From Sipunculus nudus (Eukaryota > Annelida > Sipuncula > Golfingiida > Sipunculidae): 64,000 bases of DNA. How positions within the stretch are numbered: position 1 is the first letter of the stretch; each line of letters begins with the position of its first letter. The stretch is taken from contig CM049316.1 in assembly GCA_026874595.1 (NCBI GenBank), forward strand, positions 310,001-374,000. Reading direction: 5' to 3'. A model generated the notes under the pieces. It ran no database searches and was not told the DNA's origin. It worked only from the letters and a program-made list of their open reading frames with translations. A program made the position numbers and the translations under genes. This document shows positions 32,348 to 64,000 of the stretch, piece by piece.

Positions 32348-32716
32348 TTAGGGTTAGGGTTAGGGTTAGGGTTAGGGTTAGGGTTAGGGTTAGGGTTAGG
32401 GTTAGGGTTAGGTTAGGGTTTAGGTTTGGGTTTAGGGTTAGGGTTAGGGTTAGGGTTAGGGTTAGGGTTAGGGTTAGGTTAGGGTTAGGGTTAGGGTTAG
32501 GGTTAGGGTTAGGGTTAGGGTTAGGGTTAGGGTTAGGGTTAGGGTTAGGGTTAGGGTTAGGTTAGGGTTAGGGTTAGGGTTAGGTTTTTAGGTTAGGGTT
32601 AGGTTTAGGTTAGGTTAGGGTTAGGGTTAGGGTTAGGGTTAGGGTTAGGGTTAGGGTTAGGGTTAGGGTTAGGGTTAGGGTTAGGGTTAGGGTTAGGGTT
32701 AGGGTTAGGGTTAGGG
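32348..32716 (+). repeat. Interstitial telomeric repeat array 2 (TTAGGG)
   Basis: About 60 units in plus orientation with scattered TTAGG, TTTAGG and TTTGGG variants around 32410-32430 and 32560-32610. The right-hand 130 bases are perfect. Confidence 0.95.
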
Positions 32717-33101
32717 CTATGGTCTTAGACTTAAGGTAAGTTGAAAACTTGTTATTTTGGTCCTATTTTCAACTTATCAAGTGTAATTTTCGACTTAATT
32801 TCGAGCATTTTTTAGGTTGAAATTACATTCGACTTAATTTCGATTTGGTCCTTCAGTTTCAACTTAGGAGTCAACTTAACCTTTTAAAGTTTATTCAACT
32901 TATGCCTAAGTTGATTCAGACGTCAAGTTTTATCTGTCCATTTCTTGTGAGAGCACTCTAGGACGTGGTGCCCCCTGGCTCTTGAACGTGTACTTAGTAA
33001 TTTTTGGTATCTTTACAGTGTTATGGTCCTAAACTTAGACTTTTAGGGTCCTAAACTTACAGCGTTATGGTCCTAAACTTAATTTTTTTTGTATATATAT
33101 T

Positions 33102-34098
33102 AGGTAAATGGCAACCTTTCAAGCGTCCAAGTTAGCATAGTAATGCGGCCTTTCCTTCTGGATGTGAAATAAATTAAAGCGCATATATCATAGGTGAAAA
33201 AAACAATTTTAAACAGTACCTTTTCACACAAGGTTAAATGCGGTCTTACTTTAAAATGTTGTATTGAATGGTAAATGGGAATTATTGGCAATATTTCAAG
33301 CGTCCAAGTAGTCATAATAATGCGGCCTTTCCTTCTGAATATGAGAAAAATAAAAGCGCATATCATATTTGAAAAAAAAAACATTTTAAACAGTAACTTA
33401 TCCTGAAAGGTTGAATACGATCTTAAGTTGAAAGCTGTATTGAACGGTAAATGGTAATATTGTCTAGACATGTCTGGCTGTTGAACGTGTACTTACCAAT
33501 TTTTTTTGTTTCTTTGAGGTGTTATGGTCCTATTAAAGATATATAAATATATTTACATAAATATATATACATATATATACATATATATACATATATACAT
33601 ATATATATGTCACTGTAGGACGTGGCGCCCCCTGGCTGTTGAACGTATACTTGGTAATTTTTGGTATCTTTACAGTGTTATGGTACTAAACTTACAATGT
33701 TATGGTCCTAAACTTAGATTGTTATGGTCATGAACTTAAGCTTTTTTGGGTTATATATGAGGTAAATGGCAACATTTCAAGCGTACAGAGTGGTCATAGT
33801 AATGAGGACTTTCCTTCTGGATATGAAAAAAATAAAAGCGCATATATCATATGTGAAAAAACGATTTCAAACAGGATCTTTTCCCGTAAGGTTGAACAGT
33901 CTGAAGTTGAAAAGCTGTATTGAATGGTAAATGGCAAATAAATGGCAATTTTTCAAGCGTCGACGTGGTCAGAGTAATGCGGCCTTTCCTTCTGGATATA
34001 AGAAAAATAAAAGCGCATATATAAAGTGTTAAAAAACAAATTTAAACAGTATGAGGTTAAATACGGTCTTAAGTTGAAAAGGTGTATTGAACAGTGAA
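33102..34098 (+). repeat. About 170-bp monomers, four copies in two pairs
   Basis: Units start at about 33102, 33269, 33760 and 33926 with GGTAAATGGCAA-TTTCAAGCG and share GCGGCCTTTCCTTCTGGATA and AATAAAAGCGCATAT. They alternate with segments carrying GTGTTATGGTCCTAAACTTA. Confidence 0.8.
33622..33635 (-). promoter_or_regulatory. CTCF-like core
   Basis: GTGGCGCCCCCTGG; its complement CCAGGGGGCGCCAC contains the invariant CTCF core. A weaker GTGGTGCCCCCTGG lies at 32965-32978. Confidence 0.35.
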
Positions 34099-34199
34099 TG
34101 GTATTATTGTCCAGACATGTCTCGCTGTTGAAAGTGTACTTGCCGATTTTTTGTATATTTACAGTGTTATGGTCCTAAACTTACAATGTTATTGTCCTA

Positions 34200-34590
34200 T
34201 AAAATAAATATACATATATACATATATATATACATATATACATTTATACATATATACATATTTTCGTATATACATATATACATATATGCATATATGCGCA
34301 TATAAATATATACATTTATACATATATACATATATACATTTATACATATATACATATATACATATATACATATATACATATATACATATATACATATATA
34401 CATATATACATATATACATATATACATATATACATATATGCATATATGCATATATACATATATACATATATACATATATGCATATATACATATATACATA
34501 TATACATATATACATATATACATACATACATATATAAATATATACATATATACATACATACACATATACATATATACATATACAGATATA
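34200..34590 (+). repeat. 8-bp microsatellite array (TACATATA)n
   Basis: Nearly continuous CATATATA units with TGCATATA and TTTATA variants. Long open frames of YICIYVYM on both strands are artefacts of an 8-base (24-base per 8 codons) period. The second copy at 52610-53008 is one 8-base unit longer. Confidence 0.95.
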
Positions 34591-34606
34591 TATGTCACTC
34601 TAGGAC

Positions 34607-34620
34607 GTGGCGCCCCCTGG
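34607..34620 (-). promoter_or_regulatory. CTCF-like core
   Basis: GTGGCGCCCCCTGG again, 985 bases from the previous one, at the right edge of the microsatellite array. Confidence 0.35.
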
Positions 34621-34689
34621 CTGATGAACCTGTACTTCCTAATTTTTGTATCTTAACAGTGTTATGGTCCTAAACTTACAGTGTTATGT

Positions 34690-35500
34690 TCCATAGAGAA
34701 GTGTATCTCTGATATCAACAATTGCACCTGGACTTTGAGTTAAATTATACTATGTAGCATGGGAAAATTTAACGGTTCACATTTGAGATCAAAATTACTT
34801 ATATACTAATATTGGCAATACTGACAATGTTTACGTACTCAGAAAATGCCTTATTGCCTATAATTTCACCAAAATACCTTTTTTATCGAAGGCATTGTAC
34901 TTATATTTGTACTTATATTCTTAAACAAATGCACATAAATAAGTGCATCTATGATACCAGCAATTATTACTGGATTTTTAGTAAAAGTGTACAATATTGG
35001 CATTGGTAAATTTAACGGTTCACATTTGAGACCAAAATAACCTATCTGTAACACCGACAATATTCAAATACTGAAATAACTTATTGTTAATACCGACTAT
35101 AATCAAATTCCAAAATAAATTATCAGTAATACTGTCAATATACAAATACTTAAAAAACTTATCGTTGTTGCCACCTATAATAAAAAATAACGAAATAACT
35201 TATGGCCAATACTAGTAAAAAGGAGAAATAACTTATATATATATATATAAATATATATCCACATGTATATATATGCACAGATATAAACATGGTCGTACCA
35301 GTAAATATATAAATATATATATATTATATATATGTATTTCTATATATATATATATCCATTCATACATATATATATATGTGATTTACATTATTAACGCGAC
35401 TGGTACAATGTTGCCATGTAAAAATTTAACATTTCTTATTTGAGACCAAAATAACTTATCGATAATACCAATAATATTAAAAAACTGAAATCATTTTTTG
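34690..35500. repeat. Isolated satellite-monomer relatives and TA microsatellites
   Basis: Single diverged copies of the 390-bp satellite monomer (34690-34870 and 34930-35150: AAATTTAACGGTTCACATTT, ACCGACAATATTCAAATACT). TA runs at 35235-35370. Confidence 0.6.
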
Positions 35501-35504
35501 TTAA

Positions 35505-35832
35505 GAGACAGATGATCAGCTAAAAGCTTGGTGTCTGAGCACATTTGTAAAATTGGAAAAAGCTCGTAAGTTACAGTGTGTCAAGTTTTCTGATGAAACG
35601 AGGCGGTACGTGGTCTGGAAAACAGTTCGGAAGTTGGGATCGTTTCTAGCCCAAGATATAGTTAATCAATTGGTGCAGTCTTGGAAAATAATATGGGAAG
35701 AACAACATCAAACAGCCTTCGAAATATTCGAACGATGTTCTTCTGCCCCTGTATTAGCTTTTCCTGACTTTTCCAAACCATTCATTTTACATGCTGATGC
35801 CAGTACTGAATATACGACCAGTGTTACATACA
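35505..35832 (+). pseudogene. Ty3/gypsy pol fragment (RT end to RNase H start)
   Basis: Open frame containing LEKARKLQCVKFS, then HQTAFEIFERCSSAPVLAF and PDFSKPFILHADAS. The APVLAFPDFSKPFILHADAS string is a classic junction of gypsy reverse transcriptase and RNase H. The frame runs into a TA microsatellite after TEYTTS, so the rest is lost. No flanking LTRs or other pol domains. An identical copy is at 53923-54250. Confidence 0.8.
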
Positions 35833-36044
35833 TATATATATATATATATTTCTGTGTGTGTATTCGTATGTAAAGTAATATATAATCTTGTAATATAAAG
35901 TAATATATAATCTGTGTATGTGTGTGACAGAGAGAGAGTCAGAGAGAGTGTGTGTGTGTGCTCATATATCTAAATGTAGTGTGACTGGGATGGACATGTG
36001 AGGGTGACTGTGCTCTCTATGTATGTGTATATGCATCAGAGATG

Positions 36045-37273
36045 TAAGTCTGATATCGGAGTTCAGCGCTATATAATTGCTATTAATTATTATTATTTTT
36101 TTTATTATAGTGACACCGGTAGAGTTTAATGATATATTATTAATAAATGTCAAATCTTTCTTCATACACGAAATATGTATGTTTGAACAGACTGCTTCTG
36201 GTAAACCAATAGGAGATATATAGAGAGATAGATATATAGAGATAGAAATATACAGATAGAGAAAGAGAGACAGATATAAAGAGAAACAGAGATGGATATA
36301 TCGATATATCGATATATCGATATAGAGATATATCGATATATCGATATAGAGATATATAGATATAGATACATAGGTTCACAGACATATAGATATATAGATA
36401 TCTAGAAAGATATATAGATATAAGCTAAACAGATATACATATATATATATATATATATATCGATAAAAAGATATATATATATATAGATCTATATATATAT
36501 ATAGAGAGAGAGAGATGTAGAGATAGATATATAAAGATATAGATATGTAGATATATAGAGATAGAGATATAGAGATATATAGATATATAGAAATGTAGAG
36601 ATAAATATATAAATATATATTTATTACATTTTAACGGGACCGGTATCTTTTCATTTATGTATTTGTTATATGTAATTACTGGGACCAGTATGAACATAGC
36701 TAAGTTCATCTAATTAAGTTGAATTTGAAATGTCAACTTAAACTTGAGTTGAATAATTAAGTTGAATCTGAATTTCAACTTAAGCTTATGTTGAATAATC
36801 TATTCTTTTAAGGGAATTTCCTTATATTTGGCTCTGTCCAATTGGGTATATTTACAGTGGTATTGTCTTAAACTTACAGTGTTATGTTCCATAGATAAAT
36901 ACATCTTTGATATCAGCAATTGTACCTGAACTTTCAGTAAAAGTATACTATGTCGGCATGGGAAAATTTAACGGTTCACATTTGAGACCAAAATCACTTA
37001 TCGGTAATACCGATAATATTCAATATTCATTATGCACATAGCTAAATTCATCTCATTAATTTGAATCTCAATTTCAACTTAAACATAAGTTAAGTTGAAT
37101 ACTTAAGTTGTCAACTTATTATGTTGAATAAATAAGTTGAATCTGATATTCAACTTAAGCTTATGTTGAATAATTAAATTAACTATTCTTTATAAAGATT
37201 TTCCTTGTATTTGGCCCAGCTGATTTTTTGCATCTTACAGTGTTATGGTCCTAAACTTAGAGTGTTATGGTCC

Positions 37274-37312
<39 letters not shown>

Positions 37313-37889
37313 CATATATATACATATATATGTATAACATGTTTAACAGGAGCGGTATTTTTACATTTATGTATTATTTTATGTGCTTTCTTTGACCAGT
37401 ATCCACATAGTTCATCTAGTTAAGTTGAATTTGAATATCAACTTAACCTTAGGTTGAATAATTGAGTTGAATCTCAATTCAACTTAATATTAAGTTGAAA
37501 ACTTAAGTTGAATCTAATTTATCAACTGAAGCTTATGTTGAACAATTAAGTTAAATCTTATTTTCAACTTCAGCTGATACTGGTATCTTTACATTTATAT
37601 TATGTTAGCATGGAAAATTTAACAGTTCCTATTTCAGAATGAAATAACTTACCCGTATCACGGACAATAATCAACTGCCAAAATAACCTATCGGTAATAC
37701 TATCAATATTCAAATAACAAAATGACTTATCTGTAATACCGACAATAATCAAAGGACAAAAAAACTTATCGATAATACCGACAAAGATTAAGTTCTAAAA
37801 TAACTGATCAGTAATACTTCATATATTCAAATACAGAAATAACTTATGTTTATATTTTGACACACACACACAAACACACACACACACAC

Positions 37890-37933
<44 letters not shown>

Positions 37934-38304
37934 AGATATAAACATACTGGTGTCAGTAAAAATATTTATATATATATAAATATATTTTCTCATATGCCTT
38001 TATATGTATTATATTTTTTAACGGTACCAGTATTTTTACATTTATGTATTATTTTATGTGCTGTCTTTGACCTGTATCCACATAGCTAAGTTCATCTAAT
38101 TAAGTTGAATTTGAAAGTCAACTTAACTTTAAGTTGAATAATTAAGTAGAATTTTAATTTCAACTTAAACTTAAGTTGAATAATTAAATTGAATCTCAAT
38201 TTCAGCTTAAGCTTATGTTGAATAATCAAATTAACTCTTCTTTGTGATTTTCCTCATATTTGTTCCACCCGATTTTTGGTATCATTACAGTGTTATGGTC
38301 ATAC
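36045..38304 (+). repeat. Internal block E, copy 1 (left of satellite)
   Basis: Begins TGATATCGGAGTTCAGCGCT and is repeated at 43565-46178 in the same order: an ATAG/TCGATATA microsatellite field, ACGGGACCGGTATCTTTTCA, AAGTTGAA-rich DNA, CA/TA microsatellite, CCGATTTTTGGTATCATTAC. The copies differ by substitutions and microsatellite length. Confidence 0.85.
36220..36620 (+). repeat. GATATA / TCGATATA microsatellite field
   Basis: ATAGATAT, TCGATATA and AGAGATAT units. Minus-strand open frames of IYISIYRYID type are repeat translations, not genes. Confidence 0.9.
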
Positions 38305-41300
38305 TATGTCGGCATGGACAAATTTAACGGTTCACATTTCAGACCAAAAGAACTCATCGTCACTACCGACATTATTCAAATACCCAAATAACTTGTCGGT
38401 AATACGGACAATGTCAAGTACCTAAAAAATGCTTTATTGCCTGGAATTTAGCCAAAATAATTATTCTTTCGAAGCCATTTTATTTATATTTGGCCCAATA
38501 AACATAATCTTAAATGAAAAAGGCCTGTTTTCAACATGAAAAACATGAGAGATGGACACAGATCTGAAACTCCTGCATTCCATATGCTAATATCATTTGA
38601 AATGTATCACCTATAATCATTCTTAAGGAAATGCACATAGATAAGTGCATCTTTGATATCAGCAATTGTACCTTGATTTTGAGAAAAAGTATACTATGTT
38701 GGCATGGGAAATTAAACGGTTCACATTCAAGACCAAAAGAACTTATCGACACTACCGACATTATTCAAATACCCAAATAACTTGTCAGTAATACCGGCAA
38801 TGTCAATACTTACAAAATGCTTTATTGCCTGGAATTTAGCCAAAATAACTATTCTTTCGAAGCCATTTTATTTATATTTGGCCCAATAAACATAATCTTG
38901 AATTAAAAAGGCCTGTTTTCAACATGAAAAAAATGAGAGATGGACACAGATCTGAAACTCCTGCATTCCCCATGCTAATAACATTAGAAATGTATCACCT
39001 ATAATCATTCTTAAGGAAATGCACATAGATAAGTGCATCTTTGATATCAGCAATTGTACCTTGATTTTGAGTAAAACTATATTATATCGGCATGAGAAAA
39101 TTAAACGGTTCACATTCAAGGCCAAAATAAATTTTAGACACTACGACATTATTCAAATACCTGAATAACTTATCGGCAATACCGACAATGTTCAAGTACT
39201 CAGAAAATAACTTATTGCCAGGAATTTGACCAAAATAACTAATCTTTTTTTAGTCATTGTACTTATATTTGGCCCAATAAACATAATCTTGAATGAAAAA
39301 GGTCTGTTTTCAACATGAAAAACCTGAGAGATGGACATAGATTTGAAACTGCTGCATTCCCCATTGATATCAGCAATGATACCTAATTTTGAGTAAAAGT
39401 ATACTATGTCAGCATGGACAAATTTAACGGTTCACATTTCAGACCAAAAGATCTTATCGACACTACCAACATTATTCAAATACCCAAATAACTTGTCGGT
39501 AATACCAACAATGTTCAAGTACTGAGAAAATAACTTATTGCCTGGAATTTAAACAAAATTACTAATCTTTTTTAGTCATTTTACTTATATTTGGCCCAAT
39601 AAACATAATCTTCAATTAAAAAGACCTGTTTTTAAGAAGAAAAACATGAGAGACGGACACTGTTTAGGAAATGCTGCTTTCCCCATGCATATATCATTTG
39701 AAATGTATCACCTGTAATCATTCCCAAGTAAATGCACATAGATATGTGCATCTTTAATAACAGCAATTGTACCAGGATTTTGAGTAAAATAGTACTGTGT
39801 CGGCATAGGAAAATTAAACATTTTTACATTCAAGACCAAAATAAATTATCGACACTACGACATTATTCAAATACCTGAATAACTTATCGGCAGTACCGAC
39901 AATGTTCAAGTACTCAGAAAATAACTAATTGCCTGGAATTTGAAAAAACTTACTAATCTTTTTTTGTCATTGTGCTTACATTTGGCCCAATAAAGATAAT
40001 TTTGAATGAATAAGGCCTGTTTTCAACATGAAAAACATGAGAGATGGACACAGATCTGAAACTCCTGCCTTCCCCATGCTAATAACATTTGAAATGTAGC
40101 ACATATAATCATTCTTAAGGAAATACACATAGATAAGTGCATCTTTGATATCAGCAATTGTACCTTGATTTTGAGTAAAAGTATACTATGTCGGCATTGG
40201 AAATTAACCGGTTCACATTCAAGACCAAAATAAATTTTTGACACTACCAACATTATTCAGATACCTGAATAATTTATCAGCTACACCGACAATGTTCAAG
40301 TACTCAGAAAATAACTTATTGCCAGGAATTTGAACAAAAGTACTAATCTTTTTTAGTCATTGTACTTATATTTGGCCAAATAAACATAATCTTGAATAAA
40401 AAAAGGTCTGTTTTCAACATGAAAAACCTGAGAGATGGACATAGATTTGAAACTGCTCCATTCCCCATTGATATCAGCAATGATACCTAGATTTTGAGTA
40501 AAAGTATACTATGTTGGCATGGACAAATTTAACGGTTCACATTTCAGACCAAAAGAACTTATCGACACTACCGACATTATTCAAATACATAAATAACTTG
40601 TCGGTAATACCGACAATGTCAAGTACTTACAAAATGCTTTATTGCCTAGAATTTAGCCAGTATAACTATTCTTTCGAAGCCATTTTATTTATATTTGGCC
40701 CAATAAACATAATCTTGAATTAAAAAGGCCTGTTTTCAACATGAAAAAACATGAGAGATGGACACAGATCTGAAACTCCTGCATTCCCCATGCTAATAAC
40801 ATTTGAAATGTATCACCTGTAATCATTCTTAAGTAATTGCACATAGATAAGTGCATCTTTGATATCAGCAATTGTACCTTGATTTTGAGTAAAAGTATAT
40901 TATGTCGGCATAGGAAAATTAAACATTTTTACATTCAAGACCAAAATAAATTATCGACACTACGACATTATTCAAATACCTGAATAACTTATCGGCAGTA
41001 TCGACAATGTTCAAGTACTCAGAAAATAACTAATTGCCTGGAATTTGAAAAAACTTACTAATCTTTTTTTGTCATTGTGCTTACATTTGGCCCAATAAAG
41101 ATAATTTTGAATGAATAAGGCCTGTTTTCAACATGAAAAACATGAGAGATGGACACAGATCTGAAACTCCTGCCTTCCCCATGCTAATAACATTTGAAAT
41201 GTAGCACATATAATCATTCTTAAGGAAATACACATAGATAAGTGCATCTTTGATATCAGCAATTGTACCTTGATTTTGAGTAAAAGTATACTATGTCGGC

Positions 41301-43564
41301 ATTGGAAATTAACCGGTTCACATTCAAGACCAAAATAAATTTTTGACACTACCAAACATTATTCAGATACCTGAATAATTTATCAGCTACACCGACAATG
41401 TTCAAGTACTCAGAAAATAACTTATTGCCAGTAAATTTGAACAAAAGTACTAATCTTTTTTAGTCATTGAACTTATATTTGGCCCAATAAACATAATCTT
41501 GAATAAAAAAAGGTCTGTTTTCAACATGAAAAACCTGAGAGATGGACATAGATTTGAAACTGCTCCATTCCCCATTGATATCAGCAATGATACCTAGATT
41601 TTGAGTAAAAGTATACTATGTTGGCATGGACAAATTTAACGGTTCATATTTCAGACCAAAAGAACTTATCGACACTACCGACATTATTCAAATACATAAA
41701 TAACTTGTCGGTAATACCGACAATGTCAAGTACTTACAAAATGCTTTATTGCCTAGAATTTAGCCAGTATAACTATTCTTTCGAAGCCATTTTATTTATA
41801 TTTGGCCCAATAAACATAATCTTGAATTAAAAAGGCCTGTTTTCAACATGAAAAAACATGAGAGATGGACACAGATCTGAAACTCCTGCATTCCCCATGC
41901 TAATAACATTTGAAATGTATCACCTGTAATCATTCTTAAGGAAATGCACATAGATAAGTGCATCTTTGATATCAGCAATTGTACCTTGATTTTGAGTAAA
42001 AGTATATTATGTCGGCATGGGAAATTAACCGGTTCACATTGAAGACCAAAATAAATTTTCGACACTACCGACATTATTCAAATACCTGAATAACTTATCG
42101 GCAACACCGACAATGTTCAAGTACTCAGAAAATAACTAATTGCCTGGAATTTGAGCAAAAGTACTTATCCTTTTTAGTCATTGTACTTATATTTGGCCCA
42201 ATAAACATAATCTTGAATAAAAAAAGGTCTGTTTTCAACATGAAAAACATTAGAGATGGACACAGATCTGAAACTCCTGCATTCCCAATGCTAATAACAT
42301 TTGAAATGTATCACCTATAATCATTCTTAAGGAAATGCACAAAGATAAGTGCATCTTTGATATCAGCAATTGTACCTTGATTTTGAGTAAAACTATATTA
42401 TATCGGCATGTGAAAATTAAATGGTTCACGTTCAAGACCAAAATAAATTTTCGATACTACGACATTATTCAAATACCTGAATAACTTATTGACAAAACCG
42501 ACAATGTTCAAGTACTCAGAAAATAACTTATTGCCAGGAATTTGACCAAAATAACTAATCTTTTTTAGTCATTGTACTTATATTTGGCCCAATAAACATT
42601 ATCTTGAATGAGAAAGGTCTGTTTTCAACATGAAAAACCTGAGAGATGGACATAGATTTGAAACTGCTGCATTCCCCATTGATATCAGCAATGACACCTA
42701 GATTTTAAGTAAAAGTATACTATGTCAGCATGGACAAATTTAACGGTTCACATTTCAAGACCAAAATAAATTTTTGACACTACCGACATTTTTTAAATAC
42801 CCAAATAACTTGTCGGTAATACCGACAATGTCAAGTACTTACAAAATGCTTTATTGCCCGGAATTTAGCCAAAATAACTATTCTTTCAAAGCCATTTTAT
42901 TTATATTTGGCCCAATAAACATTATCTTGAATGAAAAAGATCTGTTTTTAAGAAGAAAAACATGAGAGACGGACACTGTTTAGGAAATGCTGCATTCCCC
43001 ATGCATATATCATTTGAAATGTATCATCTGTAATCATTCCCAAGTAAATGCACATAGATATGTGCATCTTTAAAACCAGCAATTGTACAAGGATTTTGAG
43101 TAAAATAATACTGTGTCGGCATAGGAAAATTAAACATTTTTACATTCAAGACCAAAATAAATTATCGACACTAGGACATTATTCAAATACCTGAATAACT
43201 TATCGGCAGTACCGACAATGTTCAAGTACTCAGAAAATAACTAATTGCCTGGAATTTGAAAAAACTTACTAATCTTTTTTTGTCATTGTGCTTTCATTTC
43301 GCCCAATAAAGATAATTTTGAATGAAGAAGGCCTGTTTTCAACATGAAAAACATGAGAGATGGACACAGATCTGAAACTCCTTCATTCCCCATGCTAATA
43401 ACATTTGATATGTATCACCTATAATCATTCTTAAGGAAATGCACATAGATAAGTGCATCTTTGATATCAGCAATTGTACCTTGATTTTGAGTAAAACTAT
43501 ATTATATCGGCATGGGAAAATTAAACGGTTCACAATTAAGACCAAAATCAATTTTCGACACTAC
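38305..43564 (+). repeat. Satellite array with trimeric higher-order repeat, copy 1
   Basis: Fourteen related monomers marked by GGCCTGTTTTCAACATG or its variants at 38522, 38910, 39301, 39623, 40014, 40405, 40727, 41119, 41512, 41834, 42226, 42616, 42939 and 43330. Spacings run 388, 391, 322, 391, 391, 322, 392, 393, 322, 392, 390, 323, 391: a strict long-long-short pattern with a period of about 1106 bp. The short monomer lacks most of the stretch with CACCTATAATCATTCTTAAG. Copies one period apart are much closer to each other than neighbours are: the 70-codon frames at 40511 and 41618 encode the same peptide. Confidence 0.95.
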
Positions 43565-44281
43565 GACTGATATCGGAGTTCAGCGCTATATAATTGCTAT
43601 TAATAATTATTATTTTTTTTATTATAGTGACACTGGTAGAGTTTAATGATATATTACTAATAAATGTCAAATCTTTCTTCATACACGAAATATGTATGTT
43701 TGAACAGACTGATTCTGGTAAACCAATAGGAGATATATAGAGAGATAGATATATAGATATATAGAGATAGAAATATAGAGATAGAGAAAGAGAGACAGAT
43801 ATAAAGAGAAACGGAGATGTATATATCGATATATCGATATATCAATATATCGATATATCGATATAACGATATATCATTATATCGATATATCGATATATCG
43901 GTATATCGATATATCAATATATCGATATATAGATATATAGATATATAGATATATAGATATAGAGATATAGAGATATAGAGATATAGAGATATATAGATAT
44001 ATAGATATATAGATATATAGATATATAGATATATAGATATATAGATATGTAGATATATAGATATAGATATATAGGTTCACAGACATATAGATATATAGAT
44101 ATCTAGAAAGATATATAGATATAAGCTAAACAGATATACATATATATATACATATATATATCGATATAAAGATATATATATATATAGATCTATATATAGA
44201 TATATGGAAATAATGATATATATATATATATATATATATATTGAGAGACAGAGGGAGAGGGATAGAGATATAGAGATATAG

Positions 44282-44312
<31 letters not shown>

Positions 44313-45153: not shown

Positions 45154-45196
<43 letters not shown>

Positions 45197-52045: not shown

Positions 52046-52609
52046 CTGTTGAACGTATACTTGGTAATTTTTGGTATCTTTACAGTGTTATGGTACTAAA
52101 CTTACAATGTTATGGTCCTAAACTTAGATTGTTATGGTCATGAACTTAAGCTTTTTTGGGTTATATATGAGGTAAATGGCAACATTTCAAGCGTACAGAG
52201 TGGTCATAGTAATGAGGACTTTCCTTCTGGATATGAAAAAAATAAAAGCGCATATATCATATGTGAAAAAACGATTTCAAACAGGATCTTTTCCCGTAAG
52301 GTTGAACAGTCTGAAGTTGAAAAGCTGTATTGAATGGTAAATGGCAAATAAATGGCAATTTTTCAAGCGTCGACGTGGTCAGAGTAATGCGGCCTTTCCT
52401 TCTGGATATAAGAAAAATAAAAGCGCATATATAAAGTGTTAAAAAACAAATTTAAACAGTATGAGGTTAAATACGGTCTTAAGTTGAAAAGGTGTATTGA
52501 ACAGTGAATGGTATTATTGTCCAGACATGTCTCGCTGTTGAAAGTGTACTTGCCGATTTTTTGTATATTTACAGTGTTATGGTCCTAAACTTACAATGTT
52601 ATTGTCCTA

Positions 52610-53008
52610 TAAAATAAATATACATATATACATATATATATACATATATACATTTATACATATATACATATTTTCGTATATACATATATACATATATGCA
52701 TATATGCGCATATAAATATATACATTTATACATATATACATATATACATTTATACATATATACATATATACATATATACATATATACATATATACATATA
52801 TACATATATACATATATACATATATACATATATACATATATACATATATACATATATGCATATATGCATATATACATATATACATATATACATATATGCA
52901 TATATACATATATACATATATACATATATACATATATACATACATACATATATAAATATATACATATATACATACATACACATATACATATATACATATA
53001 CAGATATA
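52610..53008 (+). repeat. 8-bp microsatellite array (TACATATA)n, unit copy 2
   Basis: Counterpart of 34200-34590, longer by a single 8-base unit, which moves the copy-to-copy offset from 18410 to 18418. Confidence 0.95.
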
Positions 53009-53024
53009 TATGTCACTCTAGGAC

Positions 53025-53038
53025 GTGGCGCCCCCTGG
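53025..53038 (-). promoter_or_regulatory. CTCF-like core, unit copy 2
   Basis: GTGGCGCCCCCTGG, counterpart of 34607. Confidence 0.35.
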
Positions 53039-53922
53039 CTGATGAACCTGTACTTCCTAATTTTTGTATCTTAACAGTGTTATGGTCCTAAACTTACAGT
53101 GTTATGTTCCATAGAGAAGTGTATCTCTGATATCAACAATTGCACCTGGACTTTGAGTTAAATTATACTATGTAGCATGGGAAAATTTAACGGTTCACAT
53201 TTGAGATCAAAATTACTTATATACTAATATTGGCAATACTGACAATGTTTACGTACTCAGAAAATGCCTTATTGCCTATAATTTCACCAAAATACCTTTT
53301 TTATCGAAGGCATTGTACTTATATTTGTACTTATATTCTTAAACAAATGCACATAAATAAGTGCATCTATGATACCAGCAATTATTACTGGATTTTTAGT
53401 AAAAGTGTACAATATTGGCATTGGTAAATTTAACGGTTCACATTTGAGACCAAAATAACCTATCTGTAACACCGACAATATTCAAATACTGAAATAACTT
53501 ATTGTTAATACCGACTATAATCAAATTCCAAAATAAATTATCAGTAATACTGTCAATATACAAATACTTAAAAAACTTATCGTTGTTGCCACCTATAATA
53601 AAAAATAACGAAATAACTTATGGCCAATACTAGTAAAAAGGAGAAATAACTTATATATATATATATAAATATATATCCACATGTATATATATGCACAGAT
53701 ATAAACATGGTCGTACCAGTAAATATATAAATATATATATATTATATATATGTATTTCTATATATATATATATCCATTCATACATATATATATATGTGAT
53801 TTACATTATTAACGCGACTGGTACAATGTTGCCATGTAAAAATTTAACATTTCTTATTTGAGACCAAAATAACTTATCGATAATACCAATAATATTAAAA
53901 AACTGAAATCATTTTTTGTTAA

Positions 53923-54250
53923 GAGACAGATGATCAGCTAAAAGCTTGGTGTCTGAGCACATTTGTAAAATTGGAAAAAGCTCGTAAGTTACAGTGTGTC
54001 AAGTTTTCTGATGAAACGAGGCGGTACGTGGTCTGGAAAACAGTTCGGAAGTTGGGATCGTTTCTAGCCCAAGATATAGTTAATCAATTGGTGCAGTCTT
54101 GGAAAATAATATGGGAAGAACAACATCAAACAGCCTTCGAAATATTCGAACGATGTTCTTCTGCCCCTGTATTAGCTTTTCCTGACTTTTCCAAACCATT
54201 CATTTTACATGCTGATGCCAGTACTGAATATACGACCAGTGTTACATACA
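53923..54250 (+). pseudogene. Ty3/gypsy pol fragment, unit copy 2
   Basis: Same fragment as at 35505-35832, with the same predicted peptide and the same loss into a TA microsatellite. Confidence 0.8.
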
Positions 54251-54462
54251 TATATATATATATATATTTCTGTGTGTGTATTCGTATGTAAAGTAATATA
54301 TAATCTTGTAATATAAAGTAATATATAATCTGTGTATGTGTGTGACAGAGAGAGAGTCAGAGAGAGTGTGTGTGTGTGCTCATATATCTAAATGTAGTGT
54401 GACTGGGATGGACATGTGAGGGTGACTGTGCTCTCTATGTATGTGTATATGCATCAGAGATG

Positions 54463-55691
54463 TAAGTCTGATATCGGAGTTCAGCGCTATATAATTGCTA
54501 TTAATTATTATTATTTTTTTTATTATAGTGACACCGGTAGAGTTTAATGATATATTATTAATAAATGTCAAATCTTTCTTCATACACGAAATATGTATGT
54601 TTGAACAGACTGCTTCTGGTAAACCAATAGGAGATATATAGAGAGATAGATATATAGAGATAGAAATATACAGATAGAGAAAGAGAGACAGATATAAAGA
54701 GAAACAGAGATGGATATATCGATATATCGATATATCGATATAGAGATATATCGATATATCGATATAGAGATATATAGATATAGATACATAGGTTCACAGA
54801 CATATAGATATATAGATATCTAGAAAGATATATAGATATAAGCTAAACAGATATACATATATATATATATATATATATCGATAAAAAGATATATATATAT
54901 ATAGATCTATATATATATATAGAGAGAGAGAGATGTAGAGATAGATATATAAAGATATAGATATGTAGATATATAGAGATAGAGATATAGAGATATATAG
55001 ATATATAGAAATGTAGAGATAAATATATAAATATATATTTATTACATTTTAACGGGACCGGTATCTTTTCATTTATGTATTTGTTATATGTAATTACTGG
55101 GACCAGTATGAACATAGCTAAGTTCATCTAATTAAGTTGAATTTGAAATGTCAACTTAAACTTGAGTTGAATAATTAAGTTGAATCTGAATTTCAACTTA
55201 AGCTTATGTTGAATAATCTATTCTTTTAAGGGAATTTCCTTATATTTGGCTCTGTCCAATTGGGTATATTTACAGTGGTATTGTCTTAAACTTACAGTGT
55301 TATGTTCCATAGATAAATACATCTTTGATATCAGCAATTGTACCTGAACTTTCAGTAAAAGTATACTATGTCGGCATGGGAAAATTTAACGGTTCACATT
55401 TGAGACCAAAATCACTTATCGGTAATACCGATAATATTCAATATTCATTATGCACATAGCTAAATTCATCTCATTAATTTGAATCTCAATTTCAACTTAA
55501 ACATAAGTTAAGTTGAATACTTAAGTTGTCAACTTATTATGTTGAATAAATAAGTTGAATCTGATATTCAACTTAAGCTTATGTTGAATAATTAAATTAA
55601 CTATTCTTTATAAAGATTTTCCTTGTATTTGGCCCAGCTGATTTTTTGCATCTTACAGTGTTATGGTCCTAAACTTAGAGTGTTATGGTCC

Positions 55692-55728
<37 letters not shown>

Positions 55729-56305
55729 CATATATATACATATATATGTATAACATGTTTAACAGGAGCGGTATTTTTACATTTATGTATTATTTTATGT
55801 GCTTTCTTTGACCAGTATCCACATAGTTCATCTAGTTAAGTTGAATTTGAATATCAACTTAACCTTAGGTTGAATAATTGAGTTGAATCTCAATTCAACT
55901 TAATATTAAGTTGAAAACTTAAGTTGAATCTAATTTATCAACTGAAGCTTATGTTGAACAATTAAGTTAAATCTTATTTTCAACTTCAGCTGATACTGGT
56001 ATCTTTACATTTATATTATGTTAGCATGGAAAATTTAACAGTTCCTATTTCAGAATGAAATAACTTACCCGTATCACGGACAATAATCAACTGCCAAAAT
56101 AACCTATCGGTAATACTATCAATATTCAAATAACAAAATGACTTATCTGTAATACCGACAATAATCAAAGGACAAAAAAACTTATCGATAATACCGACAA
56201 AGATTAAGTTCTAAAATAACTGATCAGTAATACTTCATATATTCAAATACAGAAATAACTTATGTTTATATTTTGACACACACACACAAACACACACACA
56301 CACAC

Positions 56306-56359
<54 letters not shown>

Positions 56360-56732
56360 AGATATAAACATACTGGTGTCAGTAAAAATATTTATATATA
56401 TATATAAATATATTTTCTCATATGCCTTTATATGTATTATATTTTTTAACGGTACCAGTATTTTTACATTTATGTATTATTTTATGTGCTGTCTTTGACC
56501 TGTATCCACATAGCTAAGTTCATCTAATTAAGTTGAATTTGAAAGTCAACTTAACTTTAAGTTGAATAATTAAGTAGAATTTTAATTTCAACTTAAACTT
56601 AAGTTGAATAATTAAATTGAATCTCAATTTCAGCTTAAGCTTATGTTGAATAATCAAATTAACTCTTCTTTGTGATTTTCCTCATATTTGTTCCACCCGA
56701 TTTTTGGTATCATTACAGTGTTATGGTCATAC
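54463..56732 (+). repeat. Block E copy 1 of the second unit
   Basis: Counterpart of 36045-38304. The CA/TA microsatellite near 56280-56355 is longer than in the first unit and shifts the offset to 18428. Confidence 0.85.
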
Positions 56733-59700
56733 TATGTCGGCATGGACAAATTTAACGGTTCACATTTCAGACCAAAAGAACTCATCGTCACTACCGACAT
56801 TATTCAAATACCCAAATAACTTGTCGGTAATACGGACAATGTCAAGTACCTAAAAAATGCTTTATTGCCTGGAATTTAGCCAAAATAATTATTCTTTCGA
56901 AGCCATTTTATTTATATTTGGCCCAATAAACATAATCTTAAATGAAAAAGGCCTGTTTTCAACATGAAAAACATGAGAGATGGACACAGATCTGAAACTC
57001 CTGCATTCCATATGCTAATATCATTTGAAATGTATCACCTATAATCATTCTTAAGGAAATGCACATAGATAAGTGCATCTTTGATATCAGCAATTGTACC
57101 TTGATTTTGAGAAAAAGTATACTATGTTGGCATGGGAAATTAAACGGTTCACATTCAAGACCAAAAGAACTTATCGACACTACCGACATTATTCAAATAC
57201 CCAAATAACTTGTCAGTAATACCGGCAATGTCAATACTTACAAAATGCTTTATTGCCTGGAATTTAGCCAAAATAACTATTCTTTCGAAGCCATTTTATT
57301 TATATTTGGCCCAATAAACATAATCTTGAATTAAAAAGGCCTGTTTTCAACATGAAAAAAATGAGAGATGGACACAGATCTGAAACTCCTGCATTCCCCA
57401 TGCTAATAACATTAGAAATGTATCACCTATAATCATTCTTAAGGAAATGCACATAGATAAGTGCATCTTTGATATCAGCAATTGTACCTTGATTTTGAGT
57501 AAAACTATATTATATCGGCATGAGAAAATTAAACGGTTCACATTCAAGGCCAAAATAAATTTTAGACACTACGACATTATTCAAATACCTGAATAACTTA
57601 TCGGCAATACCGACAATGTTCAAGTACTCAGAAAATAACTTATTGCCAGGAATTTGACCAAAATAACTAATCTTTTTTTAGTCATTGTACTTATATTTGG
57701 CCCAATAAACATAATCTTGAATGAAAAAGGTCTGTTTTCAACATGAAAAACCTGAGAGATGGACATAGATTTGAAACTGCTGCATTCCCCATTGATATCA
57801 GCAATGATACCTAATTTTGAGTAAAAGTATACTATGTCAGCATGGACAAATTTAACGGTTCACATTTCAGACCAAAAGATCTTATCGACACTACCAACAT
57901 TATTCAAATACCCAAATAACTTGTCGGTAATACCAACAATGTTCAAGTACTGAGAAAATAACTTATTGCCTGGAATTTAAACAAAATTACTAATCTTTTT
58001 TAGTCATTTTACTTATATTTGGCCCAATAAACATAATCTTCAATTAAAAAGACCTGTTTTTAAGAAGAAAAACATGAGAGACGGACACTGTTTAGGAAAT
58101 GCTGCTTTCCCCATGCATATATCATTTGAAATGTATCACCTGTAATCATTCCCAAGTAAATGCACATAGATATGTGCATCTTTAATAACAGCAATTGTAC
58201 CAGGATTTTGAGTAAAATAGTACTGTGTCGGCATAGGAAAATTAAACATTTTTACATTCAAGACCAAAATAAATTATCGACACTACGACATTATTCAAAT
58301 ACCTGAATAACTTATCGGCAGTACCGACAATGTTCAAGTACTCAGAAAATAACTAATTGCCTGGAATTTGAAAAAACTTACTAATCTTTTTTTGTCATTG
58401 TGCTTACATTTGGCCCAATAAAGATAATTTTGAATGAATAAGGCCTGTTTTCAACATGAAAAACATGAGAGATGGACACAGATCTGAAACTCCTGCCTTC
58501 CCCATGCTAATAACATTTGAAATGTAGCACATATAATCATTCTTAAGGAAATACACATAGATAAGTGCATCTTTGATATCAGCAATTGTACCTTGATTTT
58601 GAGTAAAAGTATACTATGTCGGCATTGGAAATTAACCGGTTCACATTCAAGACCAAAATAAATTTTTGACACTACCAACATTATTCAGATACCTGAATAA
58701 TTTATCAGCTACACCGACAATGTTCAAGTACTCAGAAAATAACTTATTGCCAGGAATTTGAACAAAAGTACTAATCTTTTTTAGTCATTGTACTTATATT
58801 TGGCCAAATAAACATAATCTTGAATAAAAAAAGGTCTGTTTTCAACATGAAAAACCTGAGAGATGGACATAGATTTGAAACTGCTCCATTCCCCATTGAT
58901 ATCAGCAATGATACCTAGATTTTGAGTAAAAGTATACTATGTTGGCATGGACAAATTTAACGGTTCACATTTCAGACCAAAAGAACTTATCGACACTACC
59001 GACATTATTCAAATACATAAATAACTTGTCGGTAATACCGACAATGTCAAGTACTTACAAAATGCTTTATTGCCTAGAATTTAGCCAGTATAACTATTCT
59101 TTCGAAGCCATTTTATTTATATTTGGCCCAATAAACATAATCTTGAATTAAAAAGGCCTGTTTTCAACATGAAAAAACATGAGAGATGGACACAGATCTG
59201 AAACTCCTGCATTCCCCATGCTAATAACATTTGAAATGTATCACCTGTAATCATTCTTAAGTAATTGCACATAGATAAGTGCATCTTTGATATCAGCAAT
59301 TGTACCTTGATTTTGAGTAAAAGTATATTATGTCGGCATAGGAAAATTAAACATTTTTACATTCAAGACCAAAATAAATTATCGACACTACGACATTATT
59401 CAAATACCTGAATAACTTATCGGCAGTACCGACAATGTTCAAGTACTCAGAAAATAACTAATTGCCTGGAATTTGAAAAAACTTACTAATCTTTTTTTGT
59501 CATTGTGCTTACATTTGGCCCAATAAAGATAATTTTGAATGAATAAGGCCTGTTTTCAACATGAAAAACATGAGAGATGGACACAGATCTGAAACTCCTG
59601 CCTTCCCCATGCTAATAACATTTGAAATGTAGCACATATAATCATTCTTAAGGAAATACACATAGATAAGTGCATCTTTGATATCAGCAATTGTACCTTG

Positions 59701-61992
59701 ATTTTGAGTAAAAGTATACTATGTCGGCATTGGAAATTAACCGGTTCACATTCAAGATCAAAATAAATTTTTGACACTACCAAACATTATTCAGATACCT
59801 GAATAACTTATCAGCTACACCGACAATGTTCAAGTACTCAGAAAATAACTTATTGCCAGTAAATTTGAACAAAAGTACTAATCTTTTTTAGTCATTGAAC
59901 TTATATTTGGCCCAATAAACATAATCTTGAATAAAAAAAGGTCTGTTTTCAACATGAAAAACCTGAGAGATGGACATAGATTTGAAACTGCTCCATTCCC
60001 CATTGATATCAGCAATGATACCTAGATTTTGAGTAAAAGTATACTATGTTGGCATGGACAAATTTAACGGTTCATATTTCAGACCAAAAGAACTTATCGA
60101 CACTACCGACATTATTCAAATACATAAATAACTTGTCGGTAATACCGACAATGTCAAGTACTTACAAAATGCTTTATTGCCTAGAATTTAGCCAGTATAA
60201 CTATTCTTTCGAAGCCATTTTATTTATATTTGGCCCAATAAACATAATCTTGAATTAAAAAGGCCTGTTTTCAACATGAAAAAACATGAGAGATGGACAC
60301 AGATCTGAAACTCCTGCATTCCCCATGCTAATAACATTTGAAATGTATCACCTGTAATCATTCTTAAGGAAATGCACATAGATAAGTGCATCTTTGATAT
60401 CAGCAATTGTACCTTGATTTTGAGTAAAAGTATATTATGTCGGCATGGGAAATTAACCGGTTCACATTGAAGACCAAAATAAATTTTCGACACTACCGAC
60501 ATTATTCAAATACCTGAATAACTTATCGGCAACACCGACAATGTTCAAGTACTCAGAAAATAACTAATTGCCTGGAATTTGAGCAAAAGTACTTATCCTT
60601 TTTAGTCATTGTACTTATATTTGGCCCAATAAACATAATCTTGAATAAAAAAAGGTCTGTTTTCAACATGAAAAACATTAGAGATGGACACAGATCTGAA
60701 ACTCCTGCATTCCCAATGCTAATAACATTTGAAATGTATCACCTATAATCATTCTTAAGGAAATGCACAAAGATAAGTGCATCTTTGATATCAGCAATTG
60801 TACCTTGATTTTGAGTAAAACTATATTATATCGGCATGTGAAAATTAAATGGTTCACGTTCAAGACCAAAATAAATTTTCGATACTACGACATTATTCAA
60901 ATACCTGAATAACTTATTGACAAAACCGACAATGTTCAAGTACTCAGAAAATAACTTATTGCCAGGAATTTGACCAAAATAACTAATCTTTTTTAGTCAT
61001 TGTACTTATATTTGGCCCAATAAACATTATCTTGAATGAGAAAGGTCTGTTTTCAACATGAAAAACCTGAGAGATGGACATAGATTTGAAACTGCTGCAT
61101 TCCCCATTGATATCAGCAATGACACCTAGATTTTAAGTAAAAGTATACTATGTCAGCATGGACAAATTTAACGGTTCACATTTCAAGACCAAAATAAATT
61201 TTTGACACTACCGACATTTTTTAAATACCCAAATAACTTGTCGGTAATACCGACAATGTCAAGTACTTACAAAATGCTTTATTGCCCGGAATTTAGCCAA
61301 AATAACTATTCTTTCAAAGCCATTTTATTTATATTTGGCCCAATAAACATTATCTTGAATGAAAAAGATCTGTTTTTAAGAAGAAAAACATGAGAGACGG
61401 ACACTGTTTAGGAAATGCTGCATTCCCCATGCATATATCATTTGAAATGTATCATCTGTAATCATTCCCAAGTAAATGCACATAGATATGTGCATCTTTA
61501 AAACCAGCAATTGTACAAGGATTTTGAGTAAAATAATACTGTGTCGGCATAGGAAAATTAAACATTTTTACATTCAAGACCAAAATAAATTATCGACACT
61601 AGGACATTATTCAAATACCTGAATAACTTATCGGCAGTACCGACAATGTTCAAGTACTCAGAAAATAACTAATTGCCTGGAATTTGAAAAAACTTACTAA
61701 TCTTTTTTTGTCATTGTGCTTTCATTTCGCCCAATAAAGATAATTTTGAATGAAGAAGGCCTGTTTTCAACATGAAAAACATGAGAGATGGACACAGATC
61801 TGAAACTCCTTCATTCCCCATGCTAATAACATTTGATATGTATCACCTATAATCATTCTTAAGGAAATGCACATAGATAAGTGCATCTTTGATATCAGCA
61901 ATTGTACCTTGATTTTGAGTAAAACTATATTATATCGGCATGGGAAAATTAAACGGTTCACAATTAAGACCAAAATCAATTTTCGACACTAC
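56733..61992 (+). repeat. Satellite array with trimeric higher-order repeat, unit copy 2
   Basis: Same 14 monomers and the same long-long-short order as 38305-43564, at a constant offset of 18428. A G/A-type difference (41330/59758) changes one residue of the monomer frame. Confidence 0.95.
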
Positions 61993-62707
61993 GACTGATA
62001 TCGGAGTTCAGCGCTATATAATTGCTATTAATTATTATTATTTTTTTTATTATAGTGACACTGGTAGAGTTTAATGATATATTACTAATAAATGTCAAAT
62101 CTTTCTTCATACACGAAATATGTATGTTTGAACAGACTGATTCTTGTAAACCAATAGGAGATATATAGAGAGATAGATATATAGATATATAGAGATAGAA
62201 ATATAGAGATAGAGAAAGAGAGACAGATATAAAGAGAAACGGAGATGTATATATCGATATATCGATATATCAATATATCGATATATCGATATAACGATAT
62301 ATCATTATATCGATATATCGATATATCGGTATATCGATATATCAATATATCGATATATAGATATATAGATATATAGATATATAGATATAGAGATATAGAG
62401 ATATAGAGATATAGAGATATATAGATATATAGATATATAGATATATAGATATATAGATATATAGATATATAGATATGTAGATATATAGATATAGATATAT
62501 AGGTTCACAGACATATAGATATATAGATATCTAGAAAGATATATAGATATAAGCTAAACAGATATACATATATATATACATATATATATCGATATAAAGA
62601 TATATATATATATAGATCTATATATAGATATATGGAAATAATGATATATATATATATATATATATATTGAGAGACAGAGGGAGAGGGATAGAGATATAGA
62701 GATATAG

Positions 62708-62738
<31 letters not shown>

Positions 62739-63579
62739 TAGAGAGATATAGATATATAGACAGATAGAGATATAGAGAGATATAAAAATATATATATGTA
62801 TATATATATATATATATAGATATAGAGATGTAGAGATAGATATATAGAGATATAGATATGTAGATATATAGAGATATATAGATATATAGAAATGTAGAGA
62901 TAAATATAAATAATATATATCTAATACATTTTAATGGGACCGGTATCTTTTCATTTATGTATTTGTTATATGTAATTACTGGGACCAGTATGCACATAGC
63001 TAAGTTCATCTAATTTAGTTGAATTTGAAATGTCAACTTAAACTTGAGTTGAATAATTAAGTTGAATCTGAATTTCAACTTAAGCTTATGTTGAATAATC
63101 TATTCTTTTAAGGGAATTTCCTTATATTTGGCTCTGCCCAATTGGGTATATTTACAGTGGTATTGTCTTAAACTTACAGTGTTATGGTCCATAGATAAGT
63201 ACATCTTTGATATCAGCAATTGTACCTGAACTTTCAGTAAAAGTATACTATGTCGGCATGGGAAAATTTAACGGTTCACATTTGAGACCAAAATCACTTA
63301 TTGGTAATACCGATTATATTTAATATTCATTATGCACATAGCTAAATTCATCTCATTAATTTGAATCTCAATTTCAACTTAAACATAAGTTAAGTTGAAT
63401 ACTTAAGTTGTCAACTTATTATGTTGAATAAATAAGTTGAATCTGATATTCAACTTAAGCTTATGTTGAATAATTAAATTAACTATTCTTTATAAAGATT
63501 TTCCTTGTATTTGGCCCAGCTGATTTTTTGCATCTTACAGTGTTATGGTCCTAAACTTAGAGTGTTATGGTCCTATAAT

Positions 63580-63622
<43 letters not shown>

Positions 63623-64000
63623 ATACATATATATACATACATACATATATATGTATAAAATTTTTAACAGGAGGGGTATCTTTACATTTATGTATTATTT
63701 TATGTGCTTTCTTTGTCCAGTATCCACATAGTTCATCTAGTTAAGTTGAATTTGAATATCAACTTAACCTTATGTTGAATAATTGAGTTGAATCTCAATT
63801 CAACTTAATATTAAGTTGAAAACTTAAGTTGAATCTAATTTATCAACTTAATCTTATGTTGAACAATTAAGTTAAATCTTATTTTCAACTTCAGCTGATA
63901 CTGGTATCTTTACATTTATATTAAGTCAGCATGGAAGATTTAAAAGTTCCTATTTCAGAATGAATTAACTTACCCGTATCACGGACAATAATCAACTGCC
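61993..64000 (+). repeat. Block E copy 2 of the second unit, cut by the window end
   Basis: Counterpart of 43565-45574. TA-run lengths differ slightly near 62650-62820. Confidence 0.85.

Follow-up and report, generated by a model that had tools for sequence, protein, structure and literature searches.

The subtelomeres of Sipunculus nudus are very probably modular, being built of large, apparently non-coding cassettes that are delimited by TTAGGG arrays and copied by recombination within these arrays. We analysed a window of 64,000 nucleotides (assembly GCA_026874595.1, contig CM049316.1, positions 310,001–374,000 of the forward strand; the scaffold is called C11 below), in which one such cassette, block B, is present twice. 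The doubled B appears to stem from a single, recent event of such copying. The features of the window, all on the + strand, are as follows.

12071–12186, +: TTAGGG array introducing block A (116 bp); the A start follows, as at C11:380047
12187–32347, +: block A (20,161 bp); its start is common to 13 further listed arrays; no coding function found
32348–32716, +: TTAGGG array between the A end and the B start (369 bp); variant repeats inside, last 17 repeats perfect
32717–51060, +: block B, copy 1 (18,344 bp); no coding function found; nested 39-, 42-, 391- and 395-bp repeats
35505–35870, +: RT-RNaseH reading-frame fragment inside block B (Pfam RT_RNaseH_2, E 5e-8)
38301–43567, +: 391-bp/1.1-kb higher-order satellite in B copy 1
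47832–49778, +: 395-bp partly self-complementary, CTTAAG-rich satellite inside B
51061–51126, +: TTAGGG array at the B-B junction (11 perfect repeats)
51127–64000 (window end), +: block B, copy 2, continuing to C11:379486

A sequence-only reading of positions 32348–64000 had described a tandem unit whose copies are each introduced by a TTAGGG array, and this unit is real. Both copies begin at the identical base (CTATGGTC..., at 32717 and 51127), and the preceding arrays, put by that reading at about 370 and 66 bases, measured 369 and 66 bp. The near identity that it saw over about 12.9 kb was confirmed, and its five or so substitutions, found by eye, became 6 substitutions and 5 indels in the in-window comparison (12,858/12,874 bp), with all 5 indels lying within AT-rich microsatellites. 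In genome DNA beyond the window, copy 2 was complete at C11:361127–379486 (18,360 bp), and the self-alignment it had proposed, extended into this following sequence, gave 8 substitutions, 5 microsatellite indels and 99.83% identity including gaps over the full unit. The substitutions were clustered, with the first 6 in a span of 3.3 kb (P 0.005) and the full set of 8 in one of 8.4 kb (P 0.02). To the right of copy 2 stands a 560-bp TTAGGG array, after which an A-type block starts at C11:380047. The outer flanks of the B pair differ, the left being the end of A and the right the start of A, and C11:280001–494000 contains no N. Because a single N-free stretch holds both copies with different outer flanks, a haplotype duplication, offered earlier as an alternative, is unlikely and was rejected. 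The term "amplified" fitted only in part: the two copies are bounded on both sides by arrays and A-type blocks, which indicates one duplication within a mosaic and not a long amplification. A third array of the same direction and the same system (12071–12186) lies outside the interval that had been reported.

The relation of block A to block B was judged by window-based controls, since in DNA of this AT content shuffle scores and E-values do not settle the matter. Over the last ~900 bp, the ends of A and B gave global scores of 148 (900 bp) and 84 (600 bp), against control maxima of 0 (979 windows) and −4 (1,490 windows), respectively. Shorter spans were less distinct, their scores being reached by 2 of 3,020 controls at 300 bp and by 15 of 3,041 at 150 bp; the homology contains one 392-bp stretch that is 61% identical. 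In regard to the block starts, 3 of 1,488 controls reached the score of the first 600 bp, and no signal was found at 150 or 300 bp. Most of the other A-B matches fell in AT-rich repeats, and matches of equal strength came from a reversed control. By these scores, A and B are alike only at the distal end and perhaps in the first 600 bp, and we rejected the idea that the whole of A is simply B in diverged form. The earlier statement that different DNA precedes the two arrays is right only in part, since over their last ~900 bp the two flanks are distantly homologous.

We sent 20 reading frames, of which 18 lie in A or B, to Pfam, and the sole one to pass a family cut-off was a 122-aa fragment of RNase H in B, repeated in copy 2 at ~53.9 kb. 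We take this fragment to be of the Ty3/gypsy type. No mobility gene was found among the 18 A/B frames, and no helicase domain was found in the frames sent, which are a subset of all frames. A coding role for the unit was rejected on the basis of these 20 selected frames. ARAGORN and Rfam (gathering threshold) detected no RNA genes in the window, a pattern scan gave 0 matches to viral contigs, and a PDB search with an fn3-like protein returned only one weak match, to an antibody light chain.

To place the window in its genome (1.43 Gb, a single assembly with gaps, from which all counts derive), arrays were collected by a pattern of at least four perfect TTAGGG repeats. This pattern misses arrays preceded by G (e.g. 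the one at 51061) and those with fewer than four perfect repeats (e.g. C11:429731). Such runs are far beyond chance, with 1,610 overlapping matches genome-wide and 0 for the reversed 24-mer. Forty-eight arrays were listed, 47 of them on chromosome scaffolds. Of these 47, 43 lay no more than 1.2 Mb from a scaffold end, in zones that make up 2.9% of the length; this limit was chosen after viewing the array list. Among these 43, 36 pointed outward and 7 inward; the arrays on C11 are inward, being oriented away from the near scaffold end. A block start followed 40 of the 48 arrays: A in 14 cases (a lower bound, from fetched junctions), B1 in 11, B2 in 13 (11 of which rest on coordinates within 1.5 kb and not on junction reading) and B3 in 2, where B2 and B3 are our labels for diverged block types. 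Seven arrays had no block border, one of them being unreadable for N, and the eighth array lacking an assigned start, C16:61063, is preceded on the left by the end of an A block, its right side not having been reached. Conversely, 4 of 17 B2 starts, whose junctions are unread, had no listed array within 1.5 kb. No TTAGGG array was found at a chromosome terminus among the termini read, and no terminal telomere adjoining a block without a gap was read; a single 2.5-kb array on C2 near 404 kb stands between N runs. The "telomeric cap" of the sequence-only reading needs qualifying, the array being a junction common to the block family and none being shown as a terminal cap.

The borders of B1 were also found by a search that did not use arrays. 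We scored 40 of 278 candidates, so that B counts are lower bounds, and all 15 near-full B1 starts among the matches listed, on 8 chromosomes, had telomere repeats directly upstream of the same base. Junctions of the type B-array-B were read on C5R (a 261-bp array, 97–99%) and C11, A-array-A on C6R, C17R (two), C15L and C147, and mixed ones on C11 (A-B, B-A and Bx-A) and C9L (Bx-B3). The arrays at the 11 block-to-block junctions read were 12–560 bp long. On C14R, C11R and C3L, B1 starts were spaced 17–22 kb apart. Between chromosomes, B1 starts were mismatch-free over 600–605 bp for C14R and C4L and for C11R_a and C3R, and in 3 of 5 same-end pairs a B1 start was closer to a copy on another chromosome. 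The scaffold termini C3R, C6R, C13R and C16R carried B or A at 96–99.9% in outward orientation. The occurrence of B-type DNA at several termini, and of B-type starts behind mostly outward arrays on many ends, bears out, in kind, the subtelomeric head-to-tail amplification that had been proposed from the window.

The anatomy, the constancy of the borders, the recurrence at many ends and the near identity between chromosomes are observed; from them we infer the following route for the copying of blocks. The modules, A (~20 kb), B (~18 kb) and the diverged B2 and B3, start and stop at same-direction TTAGGG arrays, and since one telomere repeat makes up every border, each array could pair with any other array or with the terminal telomere of a chromosome. 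Unequal exchange or break-induced replication would start in one array and run to the next array or to the end, adding one whole block and one array. Such events could yield head-to-tail copies in place (B-B here and A-A elsewhere) as well as the transfer of blocks between non-homologous ends, and one event would have doubled B in the window. The 66-bp middle array could be what remained after an exchange between two arrays, the one on the left of B, with 17 perfect repeats at its end, and the one on the right, with 19 at its start. The repeat patterns agree with an exchange between arrays, although they are not a prediction unique to it. A further proposal, which we regard as possible but rather doubtful, is that the cassettes protect the chromosome ends as a permanent second layer kept up by recombination. 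Chromosomes whose telomere is short or lost would then regularly be re-capped in the germline, beside telomerase, by the copying of one or more cassettes from another end, as from a natural constitutive reservoir of TALT (templates for alternative lengthening, which serve to rebuild telomeres where telomerase is lacking).

An assembly artefact, in which one real B on C11 was doubled by a false loop through the telomere repeats of a possibly chimeric contig, appears improbable. The small number of clustered differences between the copies would suit it, as would the C11 contig itself, which points inward and contains an inverted repeat (a palindrome of 17.4 kb at 99.4%). However, the region is free of N, each copy has its own outer flank, the B-array-B arrangement recurs on C5, and B1 starts with similar spacing occur on C14R, C11R and C3L. 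Blocks that are mobile elements inserting into telomere repeats are very unlikely. They would resemble the MoTeR retrotransposons of the blast fungus, which are reported to be inserted in telomeres (PMC7367193), and the TTAGGG bounds, the fixed start and end and the presence on many chromosome ends agree with this; but the 18 A/B frames scanned gave no reverse transcriptase or other mobility gene, only the RNase H fragment, the units are 18–20 kb and satellite-rich, and two block types with homologous ends share one kind of border.

It is hardly credible that the arrays were left behind by telomere-telomere fusion or are interstitial telomere sequences inserted by repair, with an ordinary segmental duplication of B. 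Some arrays elsewhere have such a character, the one at C17:60722353 being head-to-head and the one at C9:890306 being flanked by a ~43-bp direct repeat. Fusions yield head-to-head arrays, whereas the block arrays read run in a single direction at fixed block borders, and fusion was therefore rejected as their source. Moreover, 40 of the 48 listed arrays precede a block start, and for the B1 arrays the common junction at 15 of 15 starts contradicts this origin.

The best reading is thus of a Y'/TALT-like subtelomere with cassettes copied through their arrays. The Y' elements of Saccharomyces cerevisiae are head-to-tail tandem modules of ~5.2–6.7 kb with helicase reading frames and ARS, separated by telomere repeats of 20 to ~500 bp and two longer ones, with ITS at 145 of 234 tandem junctions (PMC13177704). 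The blocks likewise are large subtelomeric modules repeated at several ends, with tandem copies split by same-direction telomere repeats of very variable length and with mixed classes at one end; they appear to undergo duplication and to move between chromosomes in much the same way as in yeast. Unlike Y', they are 18–20 kb long and rich in satellites, no coding function was found in them, and the genome that carries them measures 1.43 Gb; at 18.3 kb and with no helicase domain in the scanned frames, B is not classed as Y'. Our junctions were mostly found through arrays, so that the rates are not comparable with the yeast ITS rate, except for the 15 of 15 B1 starts. In Caenorhabditis elegans, TALT1, TALT2 and the tandem array of TALT1 in the wild strains CB4856 and DL226 consist of a block flanked by same-direction telomere-like sequence, and TALT1 was duplicated in tandem near a chromosome end through telomere-repeat homology (PMC4595603, PMC9066243). 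The array-flanked block and its tandem duplication near a chromosome end are shared with S. nudus, in which, unlike the worm, several block types are already on many ends; copies reach the scaffold termini, the terminal telomere itself being unassembled. Mouse mTALT is similarly a subtelomeric unit (7.4 kb) in head-to-tail order with telomere-repeat flanks of uniform direction (PMC7889907), but it was amplified in cultured ALT-dependent embryonic stem cells and, in the description cited, is not presented as an architecture of the whole germline. In humans, the subtelomeric duplicons, which have (TTAGGG)n islands inside them, are a patchwork of varied segments. The S. nudus blocks are like them in having TTAGGG at boundaries (40/48), telomere-oriented arrays (36/43 near-end arrays outward) and sharing between non-homologous ends (C14R/C4L and C11R/C3R), whereas here a small set of block types meets the array at a constant first and last base. 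In a partial coverage of the literature, we found no precedent for a TTAGGG-cassette subtelomere in an invertebrate besides C. elegans, and we do not claim that it is unreported.

That internal telomere repeats are exchange points for chromosome ends is suggested by Y' in yeast, by TALT in worm and mouse and by the human duplicons. The ends of S. nudus present a very regular form of this, in which block types are few, their borders are fixed and the near-identity between ends can be measured, and this regularity makes them a natural system for asking how often a normal germline rebuilds chromosome ends by recombination. Assemblers may misjoin such ends. The 395-bp satellite of B contains the scaffold end C3R and probably C5R, and the termini C5L and C12R carry a B-like satellite that matches in the orientation opposite to B1.

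In the N-free region C11:280001–494000, which includes the window (C11:310001–374000) and its right flank (C1–C17 are the chromosome scaffolds, with L and R for their left and right ends), the blocks of the window are delimited by three TTAGGG arrays.

12071–12186, + strand: TTAGGG array
32348–32716, + strand: TTAGGG array
51061–51126, + strand: TTAGGG array with 11 perfect repeats

Block B begins identically after the second and third arrays, as the sequence-only reading had proposed for its tandem unit. Within the window, the visible copies differed by 6 substitutions and 5 indels, the latter in AT microsatellites. The claimed near-identity also held when the alignment was extended past the window, with 8 substitutions and 5 indels (24 bp) across 18.3 kb. 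The second copy is entire at C11:361127–379486, and its substitutions relative to the first (0.044%) correspond to approximately 20,000–110,000 generations of divergence at assumed mutation rates of 2e-9 to 1e-8 per site and generation. The 6 substitutions in the window fall within 3.3 kb (41001–44301; range test P 0.005), and the clustering was weaker for the 8 substitutions of the complete unit (P 0.02); gene conversion or consensus noise is perhaps responsible. The second copy is followed by a 560-bp array and then by the start of block A (A′), which was 96.8% identical over its first 2.9 kb to the DNA after the array at 12071 (block A). These results indicate that the order on C11 is unrelated DNA, array, A, array, B, array, B, array, A′.

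The DNA to the left of the two arrays preceding B had been described as different. The homology is indeed distant, but the ~900 bp immediately preceding 32348 and 51061 are homologous. The A and B ends showed 61% identity over 392 bp, and the ~900-bp global score was 148, versus ≤0 in 979 control windows. The scores of the A end against the B ends were 148 and 136, and the runner-up across the 214-kb region (1,061 windows) reached 4. The score was less clear with 150 or 300 bp only, being matched by 15 of 3,041 and 2 of 3,020 controls, respectively. The DNA left of 12071 scored at control level against the block ends. A palindromic core, ACTTAAGCTTAAGT, is common to blocks A and B and is extended to TTCAACTTAAGCTTAAGTTGAA in B; CTTAAG is scarce left of 12 kb in the window.

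26268–26281 and 28897–28910: palindromic core
49719–49740 and 49886–49907: extended core

We searched the assembly (1.43 Gb in 153 contigs; C1–C17, 61–111 Mb) with an array-start pattern, and the 84 matches clustered into 48 arrays, 47 on chromosome scaffolds and one on the small contig C147. Forty-three of the 47 lay within 1.2 Mb of a scaffold end (2.9% of the length, a limit chosen after the array list was seen), on 15 of the 17 chromosome scaffolds. The G strand ran towards the near end in 36 of these 43 and inward in 7, three of which are those of the C11 contig. The binomial P for the outward excess was 9e-6 assuming independent arrays, and arrays of one end are not independent. Counted by hand, 21 ends carried outward arrays only, two inward only (C11L and C17L) and two were mixed (C13L and C17R).

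DNA was inspected at 7 + 18 arrays besides those on C11. A block start followed the array in 40 of 48 cases: A in 14, B1 (the type of block B in the window) in 11, B2 in 13 and B3 in 2. The A starts comprised 12 near the ends of eight chromosomes (C2, C6, C11, C13, C14, C15, C16, and C17), one on C147, and one preceded by a short TTAGGG array at C5:8913922 (96%), 8.9 Mb away from the end of the scaffold; thus, a block border exists in a chromosome interior as well. As 40 of 278 candidates for the B start were scored, the counts for B1 and B2 are lower bounds: at least 15 near-full copies of the 600-bp B1 start (96–100%, 8 chromosomes) and at least 17 weaker B2 matches (68–72%, 10 chromosomes), 16 over positions 1–488 and one over 1–343. 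The two B3 starts (C9L and C17L) were 79–80% identical to the B2 start over 134–339 bp. A same-strand array of the census lay ≤1.5 kb upstream of 11 of the 15 B1 starts and 13 of the 17 B2 starts. Reading the 15 B1 junctions themselves showed, in every case, telomere repeats immediately before the start and ending at one and the same base; among the B2 starts, the junctions at C12R and C17R were read, and the other B2–array pairings are based on the ≤1.5 kb distance.

Eleven block–array–block junctions were read on both sides, with arrays of 12–560 bp and, off C11, 61–198 bp of the block end.

C5R, C11: B–B
C6R, C17R (two), C15L, C147: A–A
C11: A–B, B–A, and Bx–A (Bx, a B-like end)
C9L: Bx–B3

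To the left of the array at C16:61063 lies an A end, and the array's right side lies beyond the sequence read. The inner side of other arrays matched no block end over 106 bp (C3R), 114 bp (C12R), and 56 bp (C2R); at C13R, 21 bp were read. Seven of the 48 arrays fitted no block: C2 near 404 kb, which sits between N runs so that its flanks are unreadable, C9:890306, C13:35808, C17:60722353, and three interior arrays. The array at C9:890306 stands between direct repeats of ~43 bp (counted by eye), as if telomere repeats had been inserted at a staggered break, and the head-to-head TTAGGG/CCCTAA junction at C17:60722353 resembles a telomere fusion relic.

The scaffold termini were compared with A and B using the first ≥1.5 kb (two all N) and the last 1–1.5 kb of the 17 chromosome scaffolds. 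Ten of the 32 readable termini matched (E ≤ 1e-8), C4R weakly; with the reversed control, two weak matches arose, both at C3R, and C11L, compared separately, matched neither block. C3R (99.9%), C6R (99.5%), C13R (99.2%), and C16R (96.1%) were identical to B or A at these levels, in the outward direction. By contrast, a B-like satellite at C5L and C12R has the orientation opposite to B1; since the nearest block starts there are outward B2, the satellite may be inverted within B2. C3R and C5R (92%) stop within a self-complementary 395-bp satellite, at B position 16,065 and near 16,249, respectively, and this satellite is a possible reason for the assembly stop. None of the termini examined ended in a telomere array. 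The array near 404 kb on C2 is a 2.5-kb CCCTAA stretch that the distal half of block A faces across a gap; it is the strongest candidate for a genuine chromosome-end telomere, yet lies 404 kb inside the scaffold.

The blocks have fixed borders, a mostly outward direction, and a tandem order, and are shared between ends; recombination within the arrays is what we infer from them. The B1 copies were mutually 96–100% alike (~600 bp, gap columns ignored). No mismatch was found within the C11L and C14R pairs over ~600 bp, C14R was identical to C4L and C11R_a to C3R, and in three of the five same-end pairs (C11R, C3L, and C5R) the nearest copy was on another chromosome. These sequence comparisons indicate that B has likely both been duplicated locally and moved between the ends of non-homologous chromosomes, as judged from a small sample (600 bp) of an 18-kb block and with the proviso that a copy may be misplaced through a scaffolding error. 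The observed B–B junction could have arisen without new sequence by unequal exchange or break-induced replication between the arrays flanking B: the array to the left of B closes with 17 perfect repeats, the one to its right opens with 19, and the middle array has 11. The repeat counts agree with such exchange, short of proof.

The blocks may work like several known systems. The Y′ elements of yeast are organised in the same way, with interstitial arrays of 20 to ~500 bp (PMC13177704). Telomere-repeat homology explains the C. elegans TALT1 arrays (PMC9066243; also PMC4595603 and the review PMC9071541). In mouse, mTALT is arranged head-to-tail, and its telomere repeats are uniform in direction (PMC7889907); in human, internal (TTAGGG)n mark the boundaries of duplicons and point towards the telomere (PMC2323237). 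The S. nudus block is not itself a Y′ element, as no helicase was found among the reading frames compared with Pfam and its size is about three times that of Y′.

A palindrome lies to the right of the window.

C11:380047–430917: palindrome flanked on either side by TTAGGG repeats directed at its centre

A′ (380047 onward) and its inverted partner, ending at 429730, were 99.4% identical over 17.4 kb, with the centre near 405 kb. On the far side, on the other strand, Bx (78% to the B end over 945 bp) is joined to an A start by two TTAGGG repeats; thus, arrays face the centre from both sides. The palindrome could reflect a genuine inverted duplication or an assembly join between two chromosome ends.

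Before the first array, neighbouring + strand reading frames at 1265–2302 and 2748–3617 (345 and 289 aa; DNA 80% alike over ~0.8 kb) gave a weak fibronectin type III match under the Pfam cut-off. Two frame remnants there probably derive from LINEs.

5901–6395, + strand: reverse transcriptase (RVT_1)
7870–8583, − strand: endonuclease (Exo_endo_phos_2)

Together with the TTAGGG repeat, the fibronectin-like frames and the LINE-type reverse transcriptase and endonuclease frames point to an animal genome. The 151-bp tandem repeat at 10054–10640, left of block A, may be another subtelomeric component, since the DNA after the C13:35808 array resembles it by eye.
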